A program made the translations under genes and the position numbers. Shown here piece by piece: positions 12,490 to 60,152 of a DNA stretch of 64,000 nucleotides. Source of the stretch: Chthonobacter albigriseus (GTDB lineage Bacteria > Pseudomonadota > Alphaproteobacteria > Rhizobiales > Pleomorphomonadaceae). Each line of letters opens with the position of its first letter. Position 1 is the stretch's first letter. The notes beneath the pieces were generated by a model that was not told the DNA's origin, did not search any database, and worked only from the letters and a program-made list of their open reading frames with translations. Location of the stretch: assembly GCF_013839445.1 (NCBI RefSeq), contig NZ_JACDIT010000005.1:62001-126000 (forward strand), in the 5' to 3' direction.

Positions 12490-13065
12490 TCACACCGCGC
12501 CGACGAGCGTCGCGACTCCGAGCGCGGCGGTGACCGCTCCGGTGGCGCGCAGGATGACCGCGTTGCGGCGGCCGGCGACGCCCAGCGCGACGCCGCCTGA
12601 ATGGAGCAGAGCGGTCGCCAGTGCAAAGCTCACGAAGAAGGCAACACCTGACGCGTCGGTGGGCATCTCGGCCCCGTGTGCCGCGCCGTGGAAGGCGCCG
12701 AACAAGGCAACCATTGCCAAGGCCGGTACCGCGGGGAGCCTACGGCCGACGGCCAGGATCGCGCCGAGCGCGACGAGCGACACGGCGATGCCTGCTTCGA
12801 TGCCCGTACCGCCGAACCCGGCAGCGCCCAGGGCGCCACCGGCGACCATGGCCGCGACAAAGGCGGCAGGCAGCGCCAGCACCATGCGGCCGCCGAGCGA
12901 CAGCGCGATGATCCCGACGGCCACCATCGCGAGAAAGTGGTCGGCGCCGGTGAACGGATGGGCGAAGCCTTCGACGGCTCCGTGGACGTGATCGGCGTTT
13001 CCATGGGCGAAGGCGGCCGTTGGGGCCAGCAGCGCCGCGGCGGTGAGAGCGAGCATCCTCTTCAT
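12490..13065 (-). CDS. HupE/UreJ family nickel permease
   Basis: Started at MKRMLALTAAALL (13065), the product has about 191 residues: a signal-like first helix ending AAFA, then HGNADHVHGAVEGFAHPFTGADHFLAMVAVG and five further hydrophobic helices with HGAAHGAEMP. The HxxxGFxHPxxGxDHxLAM block is the HupE/UreJ signature; these small inner-membrane permeases bring nickel to hydrogenase or urease systems. It is the last gene of the riboswitch operon. No urease or hydrogenase is nearby, so supply of nickel to the guanidine hydrolase is the natural role (inference). Confidence 0.85.
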   Translation of the reverse strand: MKRMLALTAAALLAPTAAFAHGNADHVHGAVEGFAHPFTGADHFLAMVAVGIIALSLGGRMVLALPAAFVAAMVAGGALGAAGFGGTGIEAGIAVSLVALGAILAVGRRLPAVPALAMVALFGAFHGAAHGAEMPTDASGVAFFVSFALATALLHSGGVALGVAGRRNAVILRATGAVTAALGVATLVGAV

Positions 13066-13093
13066 CGTGTGATCTCCTGGAGTGGGTGCGGCG

Positions 13094-13621
13094 TCAGTGG
13101 CCAGCGATTTCGATGCGTGCTGCGTCCGAACGGTCATGCAAGGAGCGGGCCTCCATGAAGCCCAGCCGGATGACCTCCCGGCCGTCGTGATAGAGAAAGG
13201 ACAGGCGTCGGCGACGGGACGTCATCTTGGCCGGAAGCGGGTCGTAACGGACCCCGTCGCCGCCAACCAGCGGCATCACTGCACCAACGTCCACGACATC
13301 CTCGGTCTGGACGCGAAGCAGGTGGAGCCGCTGGCCATCGCCGGTCTCGCCGACGAAGGGAATGCCGGCGAGGCGCAGGAAGCTGACCGGATCCGGTGCG
13401 CGACCGAAACCCTCCAGGAAGGCAGTCTCGACGAGGTCGAGGTCGACGGTGCGCGGATCCTCGGCGGAATGGGCGTGTCCGTGCGGCAGATGAGGCGTCT
13501 GCCACTGCACGGACTTGGGTCCGGGCGCGTTGTGACCGACGCGTCCGGGTTCTGGGTGGTGGACATGGCTGTGGGCATGGCCGTGGTCGTGCCCGTGGTG
13601 GTGATCGTGGCCGCGATGCAT
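13094..13621 (-). CDS. histidine-rich protein of unknown family, guanidine operon
   Basis: The 175-residue product opens with a metal-binding tail, MHRGHDHHHGHDHGHAHSHVHH, with a second cluster at LPHGHAH. The remaining part (residues 58-170, PRTVDLDLVETAFLEGFGRAPDPVSFLRLAGIPFVG ... SRRRRLSFLYHDGREVIRLGFMEARSL) looks like a compact alpha/beta domain that I do not recognise. It has no P-loop or zinc-finger cysteines, so it is neither HypB nor HypA. It starts 2 bases after the hydrolase stop and is followed by hupE, so nickel storage or delivery to the hydrolase is the best guess. Confidence 0.75.
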   Translation of the reverse strand: MHRGHDHHHGHDHGHAHSHVHHPEPGRVGHNAPGPKSVQWQTPHLPHGHAHSAEDPRTVDLDLVETAFLEGFGRAPDPVSFLRLAGIPFVGETGDGQRLHLLRVQTEDVVDVGAVMPLVGGDGVRYDPLPAKMTSRRRRLSFLYHDGREVIRLGFMEARSLHDRSDAARIEIAGH

Positions 13622-13623
13622 GG

Positions 13624-14829
13624 TCAGAAGCTCACCGGCTTGTCGATGATGGACTTGTGCTTTCCGAGCGTGCCGTGGGCGACCATGGAGCCGAGGGCCT
13701 CCACGACCACGCGCACGCCGAGAAGGGCGGTGATGTCGGATGTGTCGTAGGGCGGGGAGACCTCCACGACCTCAAGGCCGCAGATCCCCGGCGCGCTCAC
13801 CAGACCGAGGAGCTTAAGCGCCTCGCGGGGGAGGAAGCCGCCCGGCTCGGGCCATCCGGTGCCGGGGACGAAACCGCAGTCGACACTGTCGACGTCGAAG
13901 GAGATGTAGACCGCGTCGGCGTCCTTCCAGGCGAGTTCGAGCGCGATCTCGGCGGTCTTCTCCAGTCCCACCTTTTCGATGTCGTCGATGGTCATGACGT
14001 TGGTGTTGCGCTTGCGCGCTTCCGAGACGCCGTAGCGGGGTACCTGCCAGCCACCGATGCCGAGCTGGACGAGGTTGGTGGCCGAGACGTTCGGGAGGTT
14101 GGTCGCCCAGAACCAGGGCGTCGTGTGCATGCGCTCGTCGAGATCCTTTTCCTGGATATCGATGTGGCGATCGAAATGGATGATGCCGATGCGCTTGGAG
14201 GTCACGTCGGCGATGCCGCGAACGCAGGGGAAACCGATCGAATGGTCGCCGCCGAGCATCACGGGCAGGGCGCCGGATGAGGCGACATGGCTGACACCGC
14301 GGGTGATCTGGTCGAACGACTTCTCCAGGTTTGCGGGGATGGTGAAGACGTCACCGGCATCGCAGAGCGTCATCTGCTCGCGCAGATCCACGCCGAGCTC
14401 GTAGTTGTAGGGCGTGTAGAGCGCCGAGATGCGCCGCATGCCCTGGGGTCCGAAACGCGTTCCCGGGCGGTAGGTGGTGCCGCTGTCGAAGGGGATGCCG
14501 ATCACCGCGGCGTCATAGCGGCCGACGTCCCGCACGTTCTCCACGTATGGAGCCTTCAGGAAGGTGTTGATGCCGGCGAAATGGGGGAGTTCGCCGCGCG
14601 CGAACGTCGGGATCGATTTGTCGGTCAGAATGTCGGCACCGGGCAGGCCCATCTCCAGGGCCCACTTCTGTTCGGCCCGCCAGCCGTCCTCCGGCAGGCG
14701 GCCTTCCGCCTCGATGGACTTCCAGCCCTGCATCTCCTTCATCGCGAAGTTCGGATGGTGGCGACGCAGGCGCTCTCGCAGCGGTGCGGCGCCGGCCCGA
14801 CGGCTGGCTCTTGTTGGTTCTTGTCTCAT
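13624..14829 (-). CDS. gdmH: nickel-dependent guanidine hydrolase, GdmH-like (arginase fold)
   Basis: The 401-residue protein belongs to the arginase/agmatinase (ureohydrolase) superfamily, with metal ligands GGDHS (His196), FDRHID (Asp220, His222, Asp224) and SFDVDSVD (Asp312, Asp314). Compared with agmatinase it has a long N-terminus and the segments LPGADILTDKSIPTFARGE and HFAGINTFLKAPY, and an Arg in the usual D-A-H-x-D motif; these recall Sll1077/GdmH of Synechocystis, which hydrolyses guanidine to urea and ammonia with Ni2+. The upstream guanidine-I riboswitch and linked transporter strongly support that. Its start overlaps the ABC ATPase stop. Annotation pipelines would probably call it agmatinase. 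Confidence 0.88.
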   Translation of the reverse strand: MRQEPTRASRRAGAAPLRERLRRHHPNFAMKEMQGWKSIEAEGRLPEDGWRAEQKWALEMGLPGADILTDKSIPTFARGELPHFAGINTFLKAPYVENVRDVGRYDAAVIGIPFDSGTTYRPGTRFGPQGMRRISALYTPYNYELGVDLREQMTLCDAGDVFTIPANLEKSFDQITRGVSHVASSGALPVMLGGDHSIGFPCVRGIADVTSKRIGIIHFDRHIDIQEKDLDERMHTTPWFWATNLPNVSATNLVQLGIGGWQVPRYGVSEARKRNTNVMTIDDIEKVGLEKTAEIALELAWKDADAVYISFDVDSVDCGFVPGTGWPEPGGFLPREALKLLGLVSAPGICGLEVVEVSPPYDTSDITALLGVRVVVEALGSMVAHGTLGKHKSIIDKPVSF

Positions 14830-15638
14830 GGGCTTTCTCCCTCGGGTTGATGGGGGTGATTGTCGCGGGCACCAAGGCTCCTGGCGACGCGGGCCAAGTC
14901 TCCGGCGACGGGAGGCTTGGCAGGGTTGTTGGGAACGTCATGGGCGATGTGGGCGCCATAGGCCGTGGGGGCCTGCGGATCGCGGCGGATCTTGTCGAAA
15001 ACGAGGATCCGGTCGGCGAGCTTGAACGCTTCCGAGATGTCGTGGGTGACCATCAGGATAGTCATGCGGGTCTCGTCCCAGATCTCGCGGAGGAGATCGT
15101 GCATCTCGCCGCGGATACCAGGATCCAGGGCGCCGAAGGGTTCGTCGAGCAGCAGCACTTTCGGGCGGCCGAGCAGGGTCTGTGCGATCGCGAGCCGCTG
15201 CTGCATTCCGCCGGAGAGTTCGGCGGGGTATCGGTTGCGGGCGTGGGCGAGGCCAACACGCTCCAGCAGGGCCTCGGCGTCGACCCGCGCCTCCTTCCGG
15301 CGCACGCCGAAGGTTCGTGCGAATGGCCCCGCCGCCTTGAAGTCGGCAACGAGGATCAGGTTTTGGAGGGCTGTGAGGTGCGGGAACACCGAGTAGCGCT
15401 GGAAGACGATGCCGCGGTCGGGATCCGGCTCGGGAGCAATTGGTGCGCCGTCGATCGTCAAGGTGCCCTTGGTGGCCTGCTCCTGGCCGAGGATGATCTT
15501 CAGGAAGGTGGTCTTGCCGCAGCCGGATGCTCCGACCAGCGCGCAGAAGGAACCGGACTCCACAGTGAGAGACATGCGCTCAAGGACGACGGCGTCGTCG
15601 TAGCGCTTTTCGAGATCGCGAACCTCGATACGGCTCAT
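14826..15638 (-). CDS. ABC transporter ATP-binding protein, NitT/TauT type
   Basis: A 270-residue ABC ATPase with Walker A GASGCGKTT (about 37-45), Q-loop, signature LSGGMQQRLAIAQ, Walker B VLLLDEPFGALD and the switch histidine in MVTHDISEA. Length and sequence fit the SsuB/TauC-like ATPases of nitrate, taurine and sulfonate importers, the type repeatedly found in guanidine-I riboswitch operons. It powers the permease encoded just upstream; both ends overlap neighbouring genes by 4 bases (ATGA), indicating coupled translation. Confidence 0.92.
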   Translation of the reverse strand: MSRIEVRDLEKRYDDAVVLERMSLTVESGSFCALVGASGCGKTTFLKIILGQEQATKGTLTIDGAPIAPEPDPDRGIVFQRYSVFPHLTALQNLILVADFKAAGPFARTFGVRRKEARVDAEALLERVGLAHARNRYPAELSGGMQQRLAIAQTLLGRPKVLLLDEPFGALDPGIRGEMHDLLREIWDETRMTILMVTHDISEAFKLADRILVFDKIRRDPQAPTAYGAHIAHDVPNNPAKPPVAGDLARVARSLGARDNHPHQPEGESP

Positions 15639-16456
15639 CGGCCCGCCTCCCGCGGATGCGCCCAGGGGAACGCGGAAATCGAGAGGCGCGCCAGGATCCA
15701 GTCCATCAGGACGGCCAGCAGGGTGATCCAGACGACGTAGGGAAGGATGACGTCCATCGCCATGTAGCGGCGGACCAGGAAGATCCGGTAGCCGAGGCCT
15801 TCGGTGGATGCGATCGCCTCCGCAGCGATCAGGAAAAGCCAGGCCGGACCAAGCTGCAGCCGGACTGCCACGAGCAGGCGGGGCAGTACCTGCGGCAACA
15901 CCAGGCGGATGATCATGGCCCAGGTCGAGGCGCCCAGCGTCTGCGCCTTGACGATGAGCTCTTCCGGGATGTCGGCGGTCCGGCCGGCGATATCGCGGAT
16001 CATCACGGGGGCAATGCCGAGAGCGATGAGGGTGATCTTGGACGCTTCCCCGAGGCCGAGCGCGATGAACAGTATCGGCAGGACCGCGAGGGGTGGAATG
16101 ACGGAGAGGACGGCGACGAAGGGGCCCAGCGTCGCGCGGATACGGGGGATGAACCCGATCGCGATACCCAGAGTGAGCGCGGACAAGGTCGCCGCACCGA
16201 CGCCGATACCGAGGCGTTCGAGGCTGGCCAGGGTGTCCGACCAGAGCAGAATGTCGCCGGAGCGTTTTTCAGGCTCGGTGGCGAGCGCGAGGAAGGCCCG
16301 CCACATCTGGGGGATGGAGGGCAGCAGCTTGTCGTCGGGGTTGGCGGAAAGCCTCTGCGCCGATGCGTAGACGTAGGCGCCCAGCACGAGCAGGATGGGC
16401 AGGGCGCCGAGAGCAAGCGAGCTGCCGCGGCCGGGTCTTGCGTTGACGAGCCTCAT
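15635..16456 (-). CDS. ABC transporter permease, NitT/TauT type
   Basis: Started at the ATG at 16456 (MRLVNARPGRG), the product has about 273 residues and six membrane helices, with the binding-protein-dependent permease motif DIPEELIVKAQTLGASTWAMIIRLVLPQVLPRLLVAVRLQLG that docks on the ATPase. It forms the inner-membrane channel for the solute captured by the binding protein at 18333-19397. Operon context predicts guanidine as substrate. The start overlaps the stop of the preceding gene in an ATGA. Confidence 0.9.
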   Translation of the reverse strand: MRLVNARPGRGSSLALGALPILLVLGAYVYASAQRLSANPDDKLLPSIPQMWRAFLALATEPEKRSGDILLWSDTLASLERLGIGVGAATLSALTLGIAIGFIPRIRATLGPFVAVLSVIPPLAVLPILFIALGLGEASKITLIALGIAPVMIRDIAGRTADIPEELIVKAQTLGASTWAMIIRLVLPQVLPRLLVAVRLQLGPAWLFLIAAEAIASTEGLGYRIFLVRRYMAMDVILPYVVWITLLAVLMDWILARLSISAFPWAHPREAGR

Positions 16457-17181
16457 GCGGCATCTCCCGCAGCCGGGGGAAACGGAGACTGTCGCCGCTC
16501 GCCGACCAGCCAAGGAAGGGTTGAGAGCTCCACCACCCAATCCGTCCCGCTCGCGCCCAATGTGCCCATGGCGACTTCGCAGTCGAGAAGATCGGCGAGG
16601 GCGCGGGCATCTCCCCGCCCCGCGGCCTCGGCGGCCTTCTCGGCAAGGATCCCCGGTGCAGGGCGAGCGGGCCGACGGTCCATGGCGGTCATTACGGTGT
16701 CGCCAACGCGAACTGCGATCGCTCCGGTCGCGGGCGTCTGCAGAGCCTCAAGCGTTGGGAGCGGGCCTTCGATGTCCTGCCACCAATGCTCCACGTAGGC
16801 GGCATCGGTGCCCGTTTCGACCAACATGCGGCCGCGGCGGGCGGCGTGTCCGCGATCGATCACGCCGGTAGGGGCGAAGTCGATCTGCCGGGCCCAGGTG
16901 CACACGTCGCCCTCGACCGTGAGTACGCCGGCGAAGGCCTCCTGACCGGCGAGGGCGACCGCGTCGGCGACGGTCAGGTCGGCGAAGCCGCGAGCGCCGG
17001 CCGCCGGCCGCGGGACGGGAAGGCGGATGTCGCAGTACCAGGCTTCGGTCTGCAGCCAGAACACCGTCGTCGCCACGTCGCCCCGCCCGTCTCCCCATTC
17101 GATGGAGAGACGGCGCCACAATCCGCGAAACATCGGGGCGACCGCCGCCGGCCCGGGAGCCGGTGAATTCGCCGCGGTCAT
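16453..17181 (-). CDS. HRI1-like protein of unknown function in the guanidine operon
   Basis: A 242-residue soluble protein without signal peptide. The first 145 residues are beta-rich: GLWRRLSIEW, TVFWLQTEAWYCDIRLPVP, GQEAFAGVLTVEGDVCTWARQIDFAP, GRMLVETGTDAAYVEHWWQDI. The order of W, FAG, ETG and W motifs resembles one lipocalin-like half of the HRI1 family (a yeast protein with bacterial relatives of unknown role); I make this match by eye. The C-terminal 90 residues look like a second beta barrel. It overlaps both neighbours by 4 bases, so it is made in step with the oxygenase and permease. Small-ligand binding is possible but untested. Confidence 0.6.
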   Translation of the reverse strand: MTAANSPAPGPAAVAPMFRGLWRRLSIEWGDGRGDVATTVFWLQTEAWYCDIRLPVPRPAAGARGFADLTVADAVALAGQEAFAGVLTVEGDVCTWARQIDFAPTGVIDRGHAARRGRMLVETGTDAAYVEHWWQDIEGPLPTLEALQTPATGAIAVRVGDTVMTAMDRRPARPAPGILAEKAAEAAGRGDARALADLLDCEVAMGTLGASGTDWVVELSTLPWLVGERRQSPFPPAAGDAA

Positions 17182-18239
17182 GTAGGGGCCGCGGCCCCGT
17201 GCTTGGCTTCCTGGCCGAAGGAGGAGAGCGCCATGCTTCCCTCCGGCAGGCTCAGCTCGCCGGTTTCCAGCTTCTTCTTGAGGTAGGCGAAGCTCTGCAT
17301 GGTTTGCGCCCAGAGATGCTCGCCGGCATAGAGCGGCTGGTAGCGGGTCGGCTCACCCGGCTTACGGAAGACCTCCAGGGGCTCGACGAGCGTGTTGAAG
17401 TCACAACCGAAGAAGAGGGGGAAGGAGTAGCGCTCGGCCTTCACCTTGCGGACGCGGTGGGAGGTCGCGACCAGGGCGCCGTTCGTCCAGACCTCCAGCA
17501 TGTCGCCGATGTTGACGACGAAGGCGTCCTCCACAGGCGGCGCGTCGATCCACTGGCCGTCGCCGTTCATGACCTCCAGACCCGGCGCGGTGGGCAGCAG
17601 GATCGTGAAGATCTCGTAGTCGGTGTGGGCCCCGATTCCTGGCCGGTCCTCAGGCTGATCGGGATCGAAGGGGTAGTGCAGCAGGCGGAGTTGGCTGACC
17701 GGCACGTTCACATGGCGCTCGAAGGTGTCCTCCGGCACGTCGAGAGCTACGGCGAGCGCCCGGGCAAGGCGTCGGCCCAGCGACATCGCGGCCTCGTAGT
17801 AGGCAGTGACGTCTTCCCGGAAGCCGGGCAGGTCGGGCCACTGGTTGGCTCCGCACATCGGAGTTCCTGCGACGACGGCCGGGTGGTCGGACGGCAGGTC
17901 GATCGCCAGATCGAAACCTTCCTTGCTGTCCGGCTTCTGGCTGTCGAAGCCTTCTTCGCCCGGCGGGACATATCCGCGGTGGTTATCGGACAGCCCGATG
18001 TAGACCTTCATCTTTTCCTCGTGAGGCAGAGAGAAGAAGGTCTTGGCCTGCGTCAGCAGCCGGTTGCGCAGGTCCCGGTCGATGCCGTGGCCGGTGATGT
18101 AGAGGAAGCCGCAGTCGCGGGCCGCCTTGCCGAGCGTGACCGCGACATCCTTCCGGTCGGCCTCGTCGGGCGAGGCAAGGCCGGAGATGTCGACGATGGG
18201 CAGCGATTGGAACGCGGTGTGGACTGGCGTGTCCGTCAT
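17178..18239 (-). CDS. Fe(II)/2-oxoglutarate-dependent oxygenase, isopenicillin-N-synthase family
   Basis: The 353-residue protein has the DIOX_N start LPIVDISGL ... CGFLYITGHGI and a jelly-roll core with all iron ligands: HTD (His205, Asp207) in GIGAHTDYEIFTIL and His261 in ATSHRVRKV. Arg270 in the RYS triplet would hold 2-oxoglutarate. Enzymes of this family hydroxylate or cyclise small molecules; the ethylene-forming enzyme and plant homoarginine 6-hydroxylase are relatives that release guanidine from arginine or homoarginine. Position inside a guanidine-riboswitch operon makes a guanidino substrate plausible (inference). Stop and next start overlap. Confidence 0.88.
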   Translation of the reverse strand: MTDTPVHTAFQSLPIVDISGLASPDEADRKDVAVTLGKAARDCGFLYITGHGIDRDLRNRLLTQAKTFFSLPHEEKMKVYIGLSDNHRGYVPPGEEGFDSQKPDSKEGFDLAIDLPSDHPAVVAGTPMCGANQWPDLPGFREDVTAYYEAAMSLGRRLARALAVALDVPEDTFERHVNVPVSQLRLLHYPFDPDQPEDRPGIGAHTDYEIFTILLPTAPGLEVMNGDGQWIDAPPVEDAFVVNIGDMLEVWTNGALVATSHRVRKVKAERYSFPLFFGCDFNTLVEPLEVFRKPGEPTRYQPLYAGEHLWAQTMQSFAYLKKKLETGELSLPEGSMALSSFGQEAKHGAAAPT

Positions 18240-18332: not shown

Positions 18333-19397
18333 TCAGAGTTCGCCCTTGGCCGCCATCGCCATGAAGCTGCTGTCGAAGCGGAGCTTCACGTTGTCCTTGG
18401 AACCGAGGATCGTGCCGTCCGGAAAGGCGATGCCGACGGCATCCACGCTGGCCGCGTTAGTGCCGAGAATGCCGTGGTCGAACAGGAAGTTGCGGACAAG
18501 GTCCATCGTCTGGACGTTGTCCTTGCTCTCCGTGAAGGCGACCGCGTCGGCTGGCTTGTAGAACATGGCGGTGGCGGCGAGTTGGGCCTTGTAGCCGGCG
18601 AGATCGGTGCCCGACGCCTTGCCCATCTCCTCCAGCGCGGCCTCACCTTCAGGCGTGCCGGACGTCATCAGCGACATGACCTCGAACCAGGCGCCGACGA
18701 GTGCCTTGCCGAAGGCGGGGTTGTCCTTCAGCGTGTCGGTGTTGACCGCCATCAGGTCCATGATCTCGCCGGGGATCTGCGTGGAGTCGAACACGGACTT
18801 GGCGCCGGGCTTGGCCAGGATTTCCGACACCATCGGGTTCCAGGTGACGACGGCGGTGACGTCGGCCGTTTCCCAGGCGGCGACCATGTCGGCATCCGAC
18901 GTGTTGACGATGGTGAGGTCCTTCTCGCTGAGGCCGACAGTGTCCAGGGCCCGCGCGAGCATGTAGTGGGAGACGGAGAGCTCGACGATGTTGACGCTCT
19001 GGCCTTTGATGTCGGCCAGCGTCTCCTTGTCCTTCAGGATGATCGCATCGTTGCCGTTGGAGAAATCGCCCATGATCAGGATGGTGGTATCGACGCCGCC
19101 GCCGGCGGGGATCGAAAGGGCATCCATGTTGGTCATGCCGCAGCCGTCGAAGCCGCCGGCGGTGTACTGGTTGATGCTCTCAACGTAGTCGTTGATGCGC
19201 GTGATCTCGACCGTGATCCCGTACTTGTCGGCCCACTTCTTCATGATGCCGCTGTCGGCCAGATAGCCCCAGGGCATCCAGCCGGCGTAGATCGACCAGC
19301 AGACCTTGAAGTCCTTCTTCTCGGCCGCTTGGGCGTGAAACGGGGCGGTGAGGAGCACCGCGGCGGCAAGGAGCGAACCGAACACTCTGGACTTCAT
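18333..19397 (-). CDS. ABC transporter substrate-binding protein, NitT/TauT type, probable guanidine binder
   Basis: The product (354 residues from the ATG at 19397, with AAGGGG 6 bases upstream) has a signal peptide MKSRVFGSLLAAAVLLTAPFHAQA and a periplasmic binding protein fold of the SsuA/TauA/NrtA type: FKVCWSIYAGWMPWGYLADSGIMKKW, FDGCGMTNMDALSIPAGGGVDTTILIMGDFSNGNDAI, WNPMVSEI. It is the first gene behind the guanidine-I riboswitch, and homologous transporters accompany guanidine-degrading enzymes elsewhere. It should deliver guanidine to the permease at 15635-16456. Confidence 0.88.
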   Translation of the reverse strand: MKSRVFGSLLAAAVLLTAPFHAQAAEKKDFKVCWSIYAGWMPWGYLADSGIMKKWADKYGITVEITRINDYVESINQYTAGGFDGCGMTNMDALSIPAGGGVDTTILIMGDFSNGNDAIILKDKETLADIKGQSVNIVELSVSHYMLARALDTVGLSEKDLTIVNTSDADMVAAWETADVTAVVTWNPMVSEILAKPGAKSVFDSTQIPGEIMDLMAVNTDTLKDNPAFGKALVGAWFEVMSLMTSGTPEGEAALEEMGKASGTDLAGYKAQLAATAMFYKPADAVAFTESKDNVQTMDLVRNFLFDHGILGTNAASVDAVGIAFPDGTILGSKDNVKLRFDSSFMAMAAKGEL

Positions 19398-19488
19398 GCG
19401 CAACCCCTTCGTCTCGGTCCGATGGACCGTGAATTCTCGCGATGGGGGCCAGCCGGCGGCGTGCGGAGGTCAGGTTCGCGCCGGCAAA

Positions 19489-19604
19489 CCCGTGCAGTGA
19501 CCTCCCGGGATTTTGTCCCGCCGTGTCTCCGGCCTGTCGCGCCGGAGTGCGTCTCTCGGACCAGCGCCATTGATATGGCCGGAACCCTAGACGCACTGCA
19601 CGGG
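19489..19604 (-). promoter_or_regulatory. guanidine-I (ykkC) riboswitch
   Basis: Read on the minus strand, the aptamer shows the ykkC landmarks in order: CTAGGGTTCCGG (19590-19579), CTGGTCCGAGAG (19564-19553), then ACACGG, CGGGA and TCCCGGGAG (19526-19502). The flanks CCCGTGCAGTG (19604-19594) and CACTGCACGGG (19499-19489) make a perfect 11-bp P1 helix. The aptamer ends about 90 nt before the binding-protein ATG. No T-tract terminator follows, but CGGTCC-N3-GGACCG (19429-19415) lies just before the Shine-Dalgarno, and its CGGACC could pair instead with GGTCCG of the aptamer, suggesting translational control. Confidence 0.93.
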
Positions 19605-19735
19605 ACTTGTTTTGCAAGGGATGGGCCAAGCGGCGCCAAGCGCCTAAATCGCAAGACAGGCCGGCCCGGAGGCCCCCGTTTGCACCGCTGAAGGCCAGCG
19701 CTGCCTATGAAATAGGCGGACCATCGGGGTCCACG

Positions 19736-23774: not shown

Positions 23775-25334
23775 TCACTCCGCCGCCACACCCGCCTCGC
23801 CGTCGTGATCCGCCAGTCCGTATTCCTTAAGCTTACGGTATAGCGTCGAACGGCCAATGCCCAGACGACGTGCGACTTCGGCCATGCGGCCGTTGTAGTG
23901 GTCGATCGCGAGGCGGATCATCTCCTCCTCGATTTCGGCAAGCGTCCGAACGTGCCCGTCGTCCGCGAGTGAGCGCATGAAGCCGAAGGGAGCGGGATCG
24001 CTGCGCTCCGGCTGGGCGACCGCGACCCCGATATAGCCGTCGTGCGGCAACGGCAGGGAGTGAAGCACTTGCGACGCGGGGGTCTCGATCTCGGGTACGG
24101 TCCTGACCTCGTCGGCGCCTTCGACGCGGCGAACCGCGGAGACGTGGCCAACCTGGGCGGCGATCTGCGGGAAGTCGTCGGGGGTCAGGTGCGTGCCGTC
24201 GCAGAGGATCACGGCTCGGAAGACAGCATTCTCCAACTGACGGATATTGCCCGGCCAGTTGTAGGCGGAAAGCATGGCGACTGTTTCGGGTGTCGCCCCG
24301 ACCAGCCGGCGCTTGCCTTCCTCCGCCGCGATCCTGGTGACGAAATGCTCCAGCAAGGTCGGGATATCCTCCTGCCGATCGCGAAGCGGCGGCACGAAGA
24401 TCGGGAAGACGTTGAGGCGATAGTAGAGGTCTTCGCGGAAGCGCCCCTCCTTGACCATGTCGAGCAGGCGTCGGTTGGTGGCGGAGATCAGCCGGAAGTC
24501 CACCTTGATGGAGCGACGGGCGCCAACCGGCTCGATCTCGCCTTCCTGCAACGCACGCAGCAGCTTGACCTGGATGTCGAGCGGCAGTTCACCGACCTCG
24601 TCGAGGAACAGCGTGCCGGTATGCGATTCCTGGAACTTGCCGACGTGCTTGTCGACGGCGCCGGTGAAGGCGCCTTTCTCGTGGCCGAACAGCGTGCTCT
24701 CGACGAGGTTCTCCGGGATCGCCCCGCAGTTCACCGTGACGAAGGGCTTCGTCCGGCGGTCGCTGGATCCCTGAATGGCGCGCGCCACGAGTTCCTTGCC
24801 GACGCCGGACTCGCCCTCGATCAGCACCGGGATGCCGGATGCGGCCGCCCGTTCGCCGAGGCGGATCACGCGCGCCATCTCGGCGCTCTTGGTGACGATA
24901 TCGCGGAAACCGAGCGCGCCGGAGGTGGTCCGGCGGATGCGCCTGATCTCGCCTTCAAGGGCTGTGACCTTGAGCGCATTCTGGATGGCGATGCTGAGGC
25001 GCTCGTGGCTGACCGGCTTGACGATGAAGTCGAAGGCGCCCGCCCGCATGGCGCCGACGACGGTGTCGATGCCGCCACGGGATGTCTGCACGATCACCGG
25101 CTTGGTGATCCCGCCTGCCGACATCCGTCCGAGCACGCCCATCCCGTCCAGGTCCGGCATGACGAGGTCCAGGATGACGAGGTCGACGTCGTCGCCCGCC
25201 GGTCCGCTCAGGACGGCGAGACCGGCCTCGCCGCCGTCGGCGGTCTGGGCTTCGTAGCCGAAGCGGCGGACCGCCTCCTCCAGCAGTCGACGTTGAATGG
25301 GATCGTCGTCGACGATGAGAATCCGTCCGGGCAT
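23775..25334 (-). CDS. sigma-54-dependent response regulator, NtrC family
   Basis: From the ATG at 25334 ([11 protein letters not shown]) the protein has 519 residues: receiver domain with phospho-acceptor Asp56 (VILDLVMP) and Lys106; AAA+ domain with Walker A GESGVGKE (174-181), the sigma-54 contact loop GAFTGA (221-226) and Walker [11 protein letters not shown]; and a Fis-type helix-turn-helix at the end ([24 protein letters not shown]). It would activate sigma-54 promoters after phosphorylation. No partner kinase is adjacent, and targets are unknown. Confidence 0.94.
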
Positions 25335-25505
25335 GTACTCACTCGCTCGGGAGGGGCGGGATCGGTTCGGAGCCCCGCGGTTTTCGGGGATGCGAACGAC
25401 CTGTTCCAATTCGAGCCAGTGTGCGGGGGTAAGGGTAAAGGGTGCCTTAACCGAAGCTTCTGGACGGGCCTGTGAACCGGGAAAACCTGATCGCCGAAAC
25501 CGGCT

Positions 25506-26788: not shown

Positions 26789-26873
26789 GGCCGATCAGAG
26801 TCTGTGCTGAGTACTATGTTACCCCAACCGTATTGTTCCGGACGGGGACTGAATTCAGATTGGATGCATTCTC

Positions 26874-26889
26874 TTAACTTACCGTTAAC
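26874..26889 (+). promoter_or_regulatory. CtrA binding site
   Basis: TTAA-N7-TTAA (26874-26888, followed by C) is a perfect match to the CtrA consensus TTAA-N7-TTAAC. A possible promoter, TTACCG-N16-AGTATT (26879-26906), overlaps it, so phosphorylated CtrA could activate or block the candidate small RNA just downstream. Confidence 0.6.
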
Positions 26890-26912
26890 CATTGCTGTGC
26901 AGTATTGGGGCG

Positions 26913-27006
26913 TCCAGGCTTCTGGATCTTCGAGTGGCTCCTTGTCACTCTTTTTGACGCCTCCCTGTTGACTTGAAGAGCCGTGCTCAGCGCGGCTCTT
27001 TTTTTG
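26913..27006 (+). ncRNA. candidate trans-acting small RNA with anti-Shine-Dalgarno loops
   Basis: About 94 nt between a CtrA-box promoter and a strong terminator fold into three hairpins: TCCAG/CTGGA (26913-26926), GAGTG/CACTC (26932-26950) with GCTCCTTGT in its loop, and the terminator AGAGCCG/CGGCTCT. CCTCCC lies unpaired at about 26961-26966. Pyrimidine-rich CUCC motifs in loops and linkers are the signature of alphaproteobacterial cuckoo/suhB-like RNAs that pair with ribosome-binding sites. There is no open frame here. It could alternatively be just the 3-prime end of the DUF1192 message. Confidence 0.45.
26977..27006 (+). terminator. Rho-independent terminator
   Basis: AGAGCCG (26977-26983) and CGGCTCT (26993-26999) form the stem, followed by a run of seven T (26999-27005). 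It ends the candidate small RNA and any read-through from DUF1192. A further perfect 9-bp hairpin without T-run, GATGCCCAT/ATGGGCATC, lies at 27014-27041. Confidence 0.88.
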
Positions 27007-59970: not shown

Positions 59971-59990
59971 GGAAAGCGCTCTAGCGTGGC

Positions 59991-60152
59991 GCCCCGCGGC
60001 GACCGTCGGAATTTCGATCCCGGGAACCTACAGTGTAGGTGGGAGCCGTTTGTCCGAGCCCACGGGCCCGGTCAGGCACAGCCCCCGTTCGGAATCGTAA
60101 GGCCCCGGGGATATTAGAGTTCCTAACGAGAAGCGCAGCGACGCCACGGGGC
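59991..60152 (-). ncRNA. ssrS: 6S RNA
   Basis: About 162 nt on the minus strand, closed by GCCCCGTGGCG (60152-60142) and CGCCGCGGGGC (60001-59991), the 6S terminal stem, with a large partly unpaired centre between inner GC stems. 6S RNA mimics an open promoter and captures sigma-70 RNA polymerase in stationary phase. The identification rests on stem architecture and on position, directly before ygfA and near zapA, the conserved arrangement. Exact ends are approximate. Confidence 0.75.

Follow-up and report, generated by a model that had tools for sequence, protein, structure and literature searches.

How does a guanidine-I aptamer act on the operon behind it, and through which helices? The question is raised by a leader in the genome of Chthonobacter albigriseus, within a stretch of 64,000 nucleotides that was analysed as a whole (hereafter referred to as the window). 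The initial annotation had assigned this leader to the guanidine-I class, with translation as the likely point of control, and had made two structural proposals: a perfect 11-bp P1, and a small hairpin ahead of the Shine-Dalgarno sequence, one arm of which could alternatively pair with the aptamer. The features identified here, all on the reverse strand, are collected in Table 1.

Table 1. Promoter, leader elements and genes of the guanidine operon, in order of transcription (positions in the window).
Feature	Positions	Strand	Remarks
Sigma-54 type promoter TTGGCCCATCCCTTGCA (GG-N10-GC)	19613..19629	-	predicted start about 19602
Guanidine-I aptamer (RF00442)	19500..19601	-	86.6 bits, gathering 63
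P0 helix, 5' strand GUGCAG	19596..19601	-	cognate pairing above swapped, 0/2000
P0 helix, 3' strand CUGCAC	19492..19497	-	same tests as 5' strand
Anti-aptamer helix AA, 5' strand GGAGGUCA	19498..19505	-	overlaps aptamer 3' edge; forms across P0; swap 0/2000
Anti-aptamer helix AA, 3' strand UGACCUCC	19465..19472	-	swap 0/2000
Inner hairpin IH, GGUUUGC-loop-GCGAACC	19473..19490	-	stacks inside AA in predicted OFF fold
Competing hairpin H2, GGGUUUGCCGGCG (19491-19479) with CGCCGGCUGGCCC (19458-19446)	19446..19491	-	12 pairs; exclusive with AA/IH
Anti-Shine-Dalgarno GGCCCC	19445..19450	-	overlaps H2 3' strand
Spacer hairpin GGUCC AUC GGACC	19416..19428	-	hairpin conserved, mean z -1.9 in 38 leaders
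Shine-Dalgarno GAAGGGG plus UU	19402..19410	-	pairs with anti-Shine-Dalgarno
ABC importer substrate-binding protein (TIGR03427)	18333..19397	-	555.6 bits; ATG at 19397
2-oxoglutarate/Fe(II) dioxygenase, MgdH-like	17178..18239	-	by family and position
MgdL-like protein, 242 aa, without Pfam family	16453..17181	-	D51/R53; 4-base overlap with dioxygenase gene
ABC permease	15635..16540	-	
ABC ATPase	14826..15638	-	
GdmH-type guanidine hydrolase (ureohydrolase family)	13624..14829	-	similarity to solved GdmH
His-rich protein, 175 aa, without Pfam or NCBIfam match	13094..13621	-	
HupE/UreJ family protein	12490..13137	-	homologue in 16/80 relatives

Aptamer, closing helix and promoter

An Rfam scan of the window returned a single guanidine riboswitch, a Guanidine-I match at 19601-19500 (E 4e-14, model positions 1-107), and at 86.6 bits against a cut-off of 63 the covariance-model search suggested by the initial annotation falls above threshold. 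The blocks CUAGGGUUCCG, CUGGUCCGAGAG, ACACGGCGGGA and CCCGGGAG are all found in the aptamer, in agreement with the claim that every conserved ykkC block is present, as are those that define membership of guanidine-I (CUAGGGUUCCG, GGUCCGAGAG, ACACGG-GGGA and CCCGGGAG); the class-defining blocks are invariant, or almost so, across 26 aligned relatives. The marker position (A46) that follows CCG (CCGAGAG), mapped by motif with the rule taken from PMC6031431, is an adenosine in the window and in all 26 relatives. Genes for guanidine transport and degradation sit downstream of the aptamer, and this context, together with the Rfam score, supports the guanidine function that had been assigned to the operon. 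Judged by these features the aptamer is an ordinary guanidine-I member, which would bind guanidine.

The aptamer is present in a single copy in the 4.64-Mb genome. Guanidine-I was found in 6 of the 20 genomes of the family; in the order, 100 of the 397 genomes had a match at E <= 0.001, and 76 of them exceeded the curated threshold. Locus L007, from a genome of the window's family, matches locus L083 of Methylobrevis albus. Two other RNAs were matched in the window: the alphaproteobacterial sRNA BjrC1505 (26869-27005, forward strand, 80.4 bits, cut-off 50, with a terminator at its end), and 6S RNA (59988-60144, reverse strand, 63.5 bits, cut-off 46.4).

The helix described as a perfect 11-bp P1 has to be reinterpreted. 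The complementarity of its strands, CCCGUGCAGUG/CACUGCACGGG, is genuine, but the P1 of Rfam is UGCGUC/GACGCA (19595-19590 with 19553-19548), and the longer helix closes the whole aptamer, at the position of P0, its two innermost pairs overlapping P1. The conserved part of this P0-like helix is only a 6-bp core, GUGCAG/CUGCAC, while the outer CCC/GGG extension is paired in just 14-17 of 39 leaders. These Group A leaders were picked by a pairing P0 motif, so that the pairing rate of the core (39/39) arises partly by construction. Among relatives, the core shows three changes from A-U to G-C and one from G-C to A-U, and the flanking outer pair changes from C-G to U-A. P0 was not found in other classes of the phylum, where 24 leaders gave a value of 8.33 against 8.36 by shuffling. 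A second alphaproteobacterial subgroup of guanidine-I (L031, L078, L086, L088, L094, L109, L138) shows a short flanking complementarity, UGAG/CUCA or CGAG/CUCG, which is perhaps another form of P0 with a different platform.

The limit of P0 conservation coincides with a promoter-like site. For the comparison of platforms I used 74 alphaproteobacterial leaders, 38 of which are non-redundant (below about 80% identity). Reading 70 bases upstream, a sigma-54 site scoring at least 10 of 14 is recognised in all 38 non-redundant leaders, against 0.9 expected by shuffling, and in 37 of them the distance between the -12 C and the P0 core is 13-15 nt. In the window, transcription is predicted to start 1 nt before the GUGCAG core. 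The conservation of P0 would end at GUGCAG because the sequence further out is promoter and not RNA, and with a start near 19602 most of the outer CCC of the 11-bp helix is therefore probably left out of the transcript. Of 66 further guanidine-I leaders from Alphaproteobacteria, 53 carry the sigma-54 site as well, where 1.1 would be expected; among 24 from other classes it occurs in 9, with a different spacing.

This site suggests that guanidine-I operons are under general nitrogen control. NtrC dyads and other enhancer dyads showed no enrichment 45-250 nt upstream among the leaders, and because of this the nitrogen input is putative. Some 4 kb upstream of the operon (23775-25409, reverse strand) lies the gene of a response regulator that resembles a sigma-54 activator, a possible partner of the promoter.

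Competing helices and the ribosome site

Four elements, of varying sequence, compete across the 38 non-redundant leaders: P0, an anti-aptamer helix (AA), an inner hairpin (IH) and a competing hairpin (H2). The AA strands are CCGGGAGA/UCUCCCGG in many relatives, as against GGAGGUCA/UGACCUCC in the window. IH has the consensus GGUUUGC-GCRAACC, with 92.9% of cells paired and compensatory changes in five of its seven pairs, and none of 500 shuffles scored as high. H2 is made of the 5' strand of IH paired with a strand past AA, and where the former shifts from GGUUUGC to GGUUCGC, its two alternative partners change with it. The 3' strand of H2 is in turn complementary to the ribosome site, with ACCCC facing GGGGU in Mesorhizobium, and ACUCC facing GGAGU, UCUUCG facing CGAAGG, or UCCUUUU facing AAAAGGG in other leaders; in some, it reads UGUGCGC and pairs with GCGCACA, between the Shine-Dalgarno sequence and the start.

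Because the AA register is shifted in the window's subgroup, strand-swap tests replaced a whole-platform alignment for the AA and H2 counts. Since the leaders share kinship, the permutation counts are not strict probabilities: swapping strands among leaders lowers the complementarity of AA and of P0 (0/2000 permutations each), of H2 (cognate 21.6, swapped 18.1, 0/2000) and of IH (6/2000), and weakens the pairing of the H2 3' strand with the ribosome site (cognate -13.98, swapped -11.88 kcal/mol, 0/2000), whereas the control pair, spacer with ribosome site, shows no effect (577/2000).

Folding energies point in the same direction. When P0 and P3 are enforced, the ribosome site opens at a median cost of 4.5 kcal/mol, compared with 7.6 kcal/mol when AA is, and 31 of 35 leaders show a difference in this sense; the mean ON/OFF difference drops from 3.04 to 0.02 +/- 0.33 if the sequence that connects AA to the ribosome site, and only that, is shuffled. 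With folds beginning at the predicted start, the difference is 2.62, against -0.27 +/- 0.34 when shuffled, and 29 of 35 leaders agree. The window RNA folded from this start, with no ligand and by a nearest-neighbour model that leaves out the tertiary contacts of the aptamer, adopts the OFF state, favoured by 2.9 kcal/mol (AA 0.92, P0 0.006); the cost of opening its ribosome site is 6.6 kcal/mol in the OFF and 4.8 kcal/mol in the ON state. For the window itself, the ON and OFF states differ by a modest 1.3-1.8 kcal/mol in opening cost, and the Shine-Dalgarno sequence is still mostly paired if P0 is locked without H2 being enforced. I regard the leader counts and predicted energies as strong comparative evidence, not as proof. 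The identity of the aptamer, the conservation and co-variation of the helices, the tuning of ribosome-site accessibility and the conserved promoter-like site are all shown here.

By prediction and by comparison, the platform thus has mutually exclusive folds, one of which hides the ribosome site. I take the leader, at a probability of about 0.78, to be a riboswitch of the guanidine-I class whose platform turns translation on; I infer guanidine binding, the direction of switching, the nitrogen input and any Rho-coupled polarity. Transcription would probably start at the sigma-54 promoter, 1 nt before P0. When guanidine is absent, the 3' edge of the aptamer would pair with the downstream strand to form AA around IH, which is incompatible with P0 and occupies the 5' strand of H2; the 3' strand of H2, left free, would then pair with the Shine-Dalgarno sequence and exclude ribosomes. 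Guanidine would stabilise the aptamer and its closing helix P0, thereby blocking AA, so that H2 could form and sequester the anti-Shine-Dalgarno; the ribosome site would open, and the importer and guanidine-degrading enzymes would be made. Given the sigma-54 start, nitrogen status and guanidine may therefore both be needed. I would give even odds to the wider proposal that an alphaproteobacterial guanidine-I lineage not described before acquired a P0 in which the 5' strand stands at the head of a transcript made from a sigma-54 promoter, with P0 against AA controlling ribosome access, and so set a gate of nitrogen starvation and guanidine on guanidine hydrolase operons.

Alternatives to the translational reading

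In the main alternative the aptamer is the same but acts chiefly on transcription, which would end prematurely within the leader or early in the gene, either by way of Rho or at a weak intrinsic terminator, the ribosome-site exchange being secondary. GC-rich untranslated leaders frequently attract Rho, and AA/IH forms a stable hairpin. Control of transcription in the ON direction has moreover been reported for guanidine-I (PMC12186494, PMC12508155, PMC11410670). An intrinsic terminator is the usual, although not a defining, platform of the class. As the initial annotation had noted, however, there is no T-tract terminator downstream: no terminator-like site was found between the window's aptamer and the gene, and across all 74 leaders, the roughly 110 nt 3' of the aptamer are free of T5 runs. 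The two T-tract terminators that were found (19760-19741 and 19734-19716) lie upstream of the promoter, and probably end the preceding gene. The linking stretch, moreover, is fitted specifically to the ribosome site, and a switch acting on transcription alone would have no need of this. A mainly transcriptional output therefore seems unlikely, and the translational mode first proposed is supported, both by the lack of a terminator and by a conserved platform with two states, in which the ribosome site is either hidden or exposed.

The initial annotation had also placed the switch in the small hairpin before the Shine-Dalgarno sequence (given as 19415-19429), whose arm CGGACC would pair with GGUCCG of the aptamer without guanidine and be released upon binding. 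The hairpin itself exists, as 5 bp at 19428-19416 between the anti-Shine-Dalgarno and the Shine-Dalgarno sequences, and in the window the proposed pairing extends to eight consecutive pairs (shuffle p 0.02). Relatives, however, keep the hairpin and not the complementarity, which occurs at the chance level (7 of 38 leaders, 6.96 expected); enforcing it costs about 10-11 kcal/mol relative to the minimum, and it leaves the Shine-Dalgarno sequence uncovered. I consider this exchange very improbable: the element appears to be only a conserved spacer hairpin, and the comparisons support a switch carried by P0, AA and H2, within 19505-19446, which the initial annotation had not recognised. Still less probable is a ykkC subtype-2 riboswitch for PRPP or ppGpp, in which, and not in guanidine-I, P0 is reported to close a four-way junction (PMC6031431): the window aptamer does have this helix, formed from both of its ends, but it has the adenosine of guanidine-I where those aptamers have a pyrimidine (PMC6031431), and the operon downstream consists of guanidine genes, no purine or amino-acid synthesis genes being found there.

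The operon and related systems

The operon genes overlap for the most part. The ureohydrolase matches GdmH of Synechocystis (7ESR/7OI1) at E 9e-159 over residues 38-390, and the guanidinase of Nitrospira inopinata (9FEK) at E 6e-154; this full-length similarity to structurally solved GdmH places it in that family. Among 80 relatives of the importer protein, GdmH accompanies 57 and the His-rich protein 56, the latter directly following GdmH in 56 of the 57 GdmH operons examined. The His-rich protein is likely a nickel accessory factor, a candidate nickel chaperone, and the HupE/UreJ protein likely a nickel permease. At the importer loci, truncated contigs being left out, the platform accompanies 52 of 57 GdmH operons and 1 of 20 non-GdmH operons (Fisher 1.5e-12), and platform and pathway therefore seem to travel together.

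Inserted among the importer genes of this GdmH-type operon are the MgdH-like and MgdL-like genes (16453-18239). In Vreelandella, MgdH and MgdL take the methyl group off methylguanidine, with D49 and R51 as the catalytic residues of MgdL (PMC12508155). The 242-aa protein shows no direct homology to solved structures or to plasmid genes. Compared by residue position with the published pair, its D51 and R53, invariant in 16 of 16 homologues, fit the reported D49/R51, and an MgdH-like gene is its operon neighbour; several of its homologues are encoded no more than about 10 kb away from other guanidine-I matches. The two genes thus have the make-up of an MgdH/MgdL pair, and methylguanidine may be a second substrate of the operon. 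MgdH was found at this position in 3 of the 80 importer relatives (L074, L075 and L081), with MgdL in two of the three. The Vreelandella boliviensis operon (PMC12508155) likewise combines a guanidine-I riboswitch, an ABC importer and the MgdH and MgdL pair, but it encodes the guanidine carboxylase pathway, with which the pair has so far been reported, and carries an internal guanidine-II switch, whereas the window has a GdmH operon with one switch.

With guanidine-I (ykkC subtype 1, RF00442) the leader shares the conserved blocks, the P1/P2/P3 fold, the guanidine import and degradation genes and a predicted ON switch. It differs in possessing P0, reported absent from the class (PMC6031431), and in a platform predicted to control ribosome access, where the class is known as a transcription-terminator ON switch (PMC12186494). 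The aptamer class itself is already known; for a P0 helix or a translational platform in guanidine-I, no description turned up in the open-access literature searched, outside which lie the original guanidine-I papers from Nelson et al. and from Reiss et al. With the PRPP/ppGpp aptamers (ykkC 2a/2b) the leader has in common a P0 that closes the four-way junction with P1, P2 and P3 and joins in the expression platform, and it is set apart from them by the guanidine-type marker adenosine, the S-turn blocks, the guanidine genes and the lack of a terminator. In a large lineage, a single aptamer class seems to have been redirected towards ribosome control, with a closing helix like that of its PRPP/ppGpp relatives, and this lineage offers a comparative test of how the coupling of one aptamer to different outputs is achieved. 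Its link with GdmH operons and sigma-54 sites also gives an indication of how alphaproteobacteria in soil and in the sea decide to use guanidine, and perhaps methylguanidine, as a nitrogen source. The closest parallel in output is found in guanidine-II and guanidine-III, whose aptamer folds are unrelated to that of the window, but in which guanidine turns on translation by freeing the Shine-Dalgarno sequence (PMC12186494), as is predicted here.
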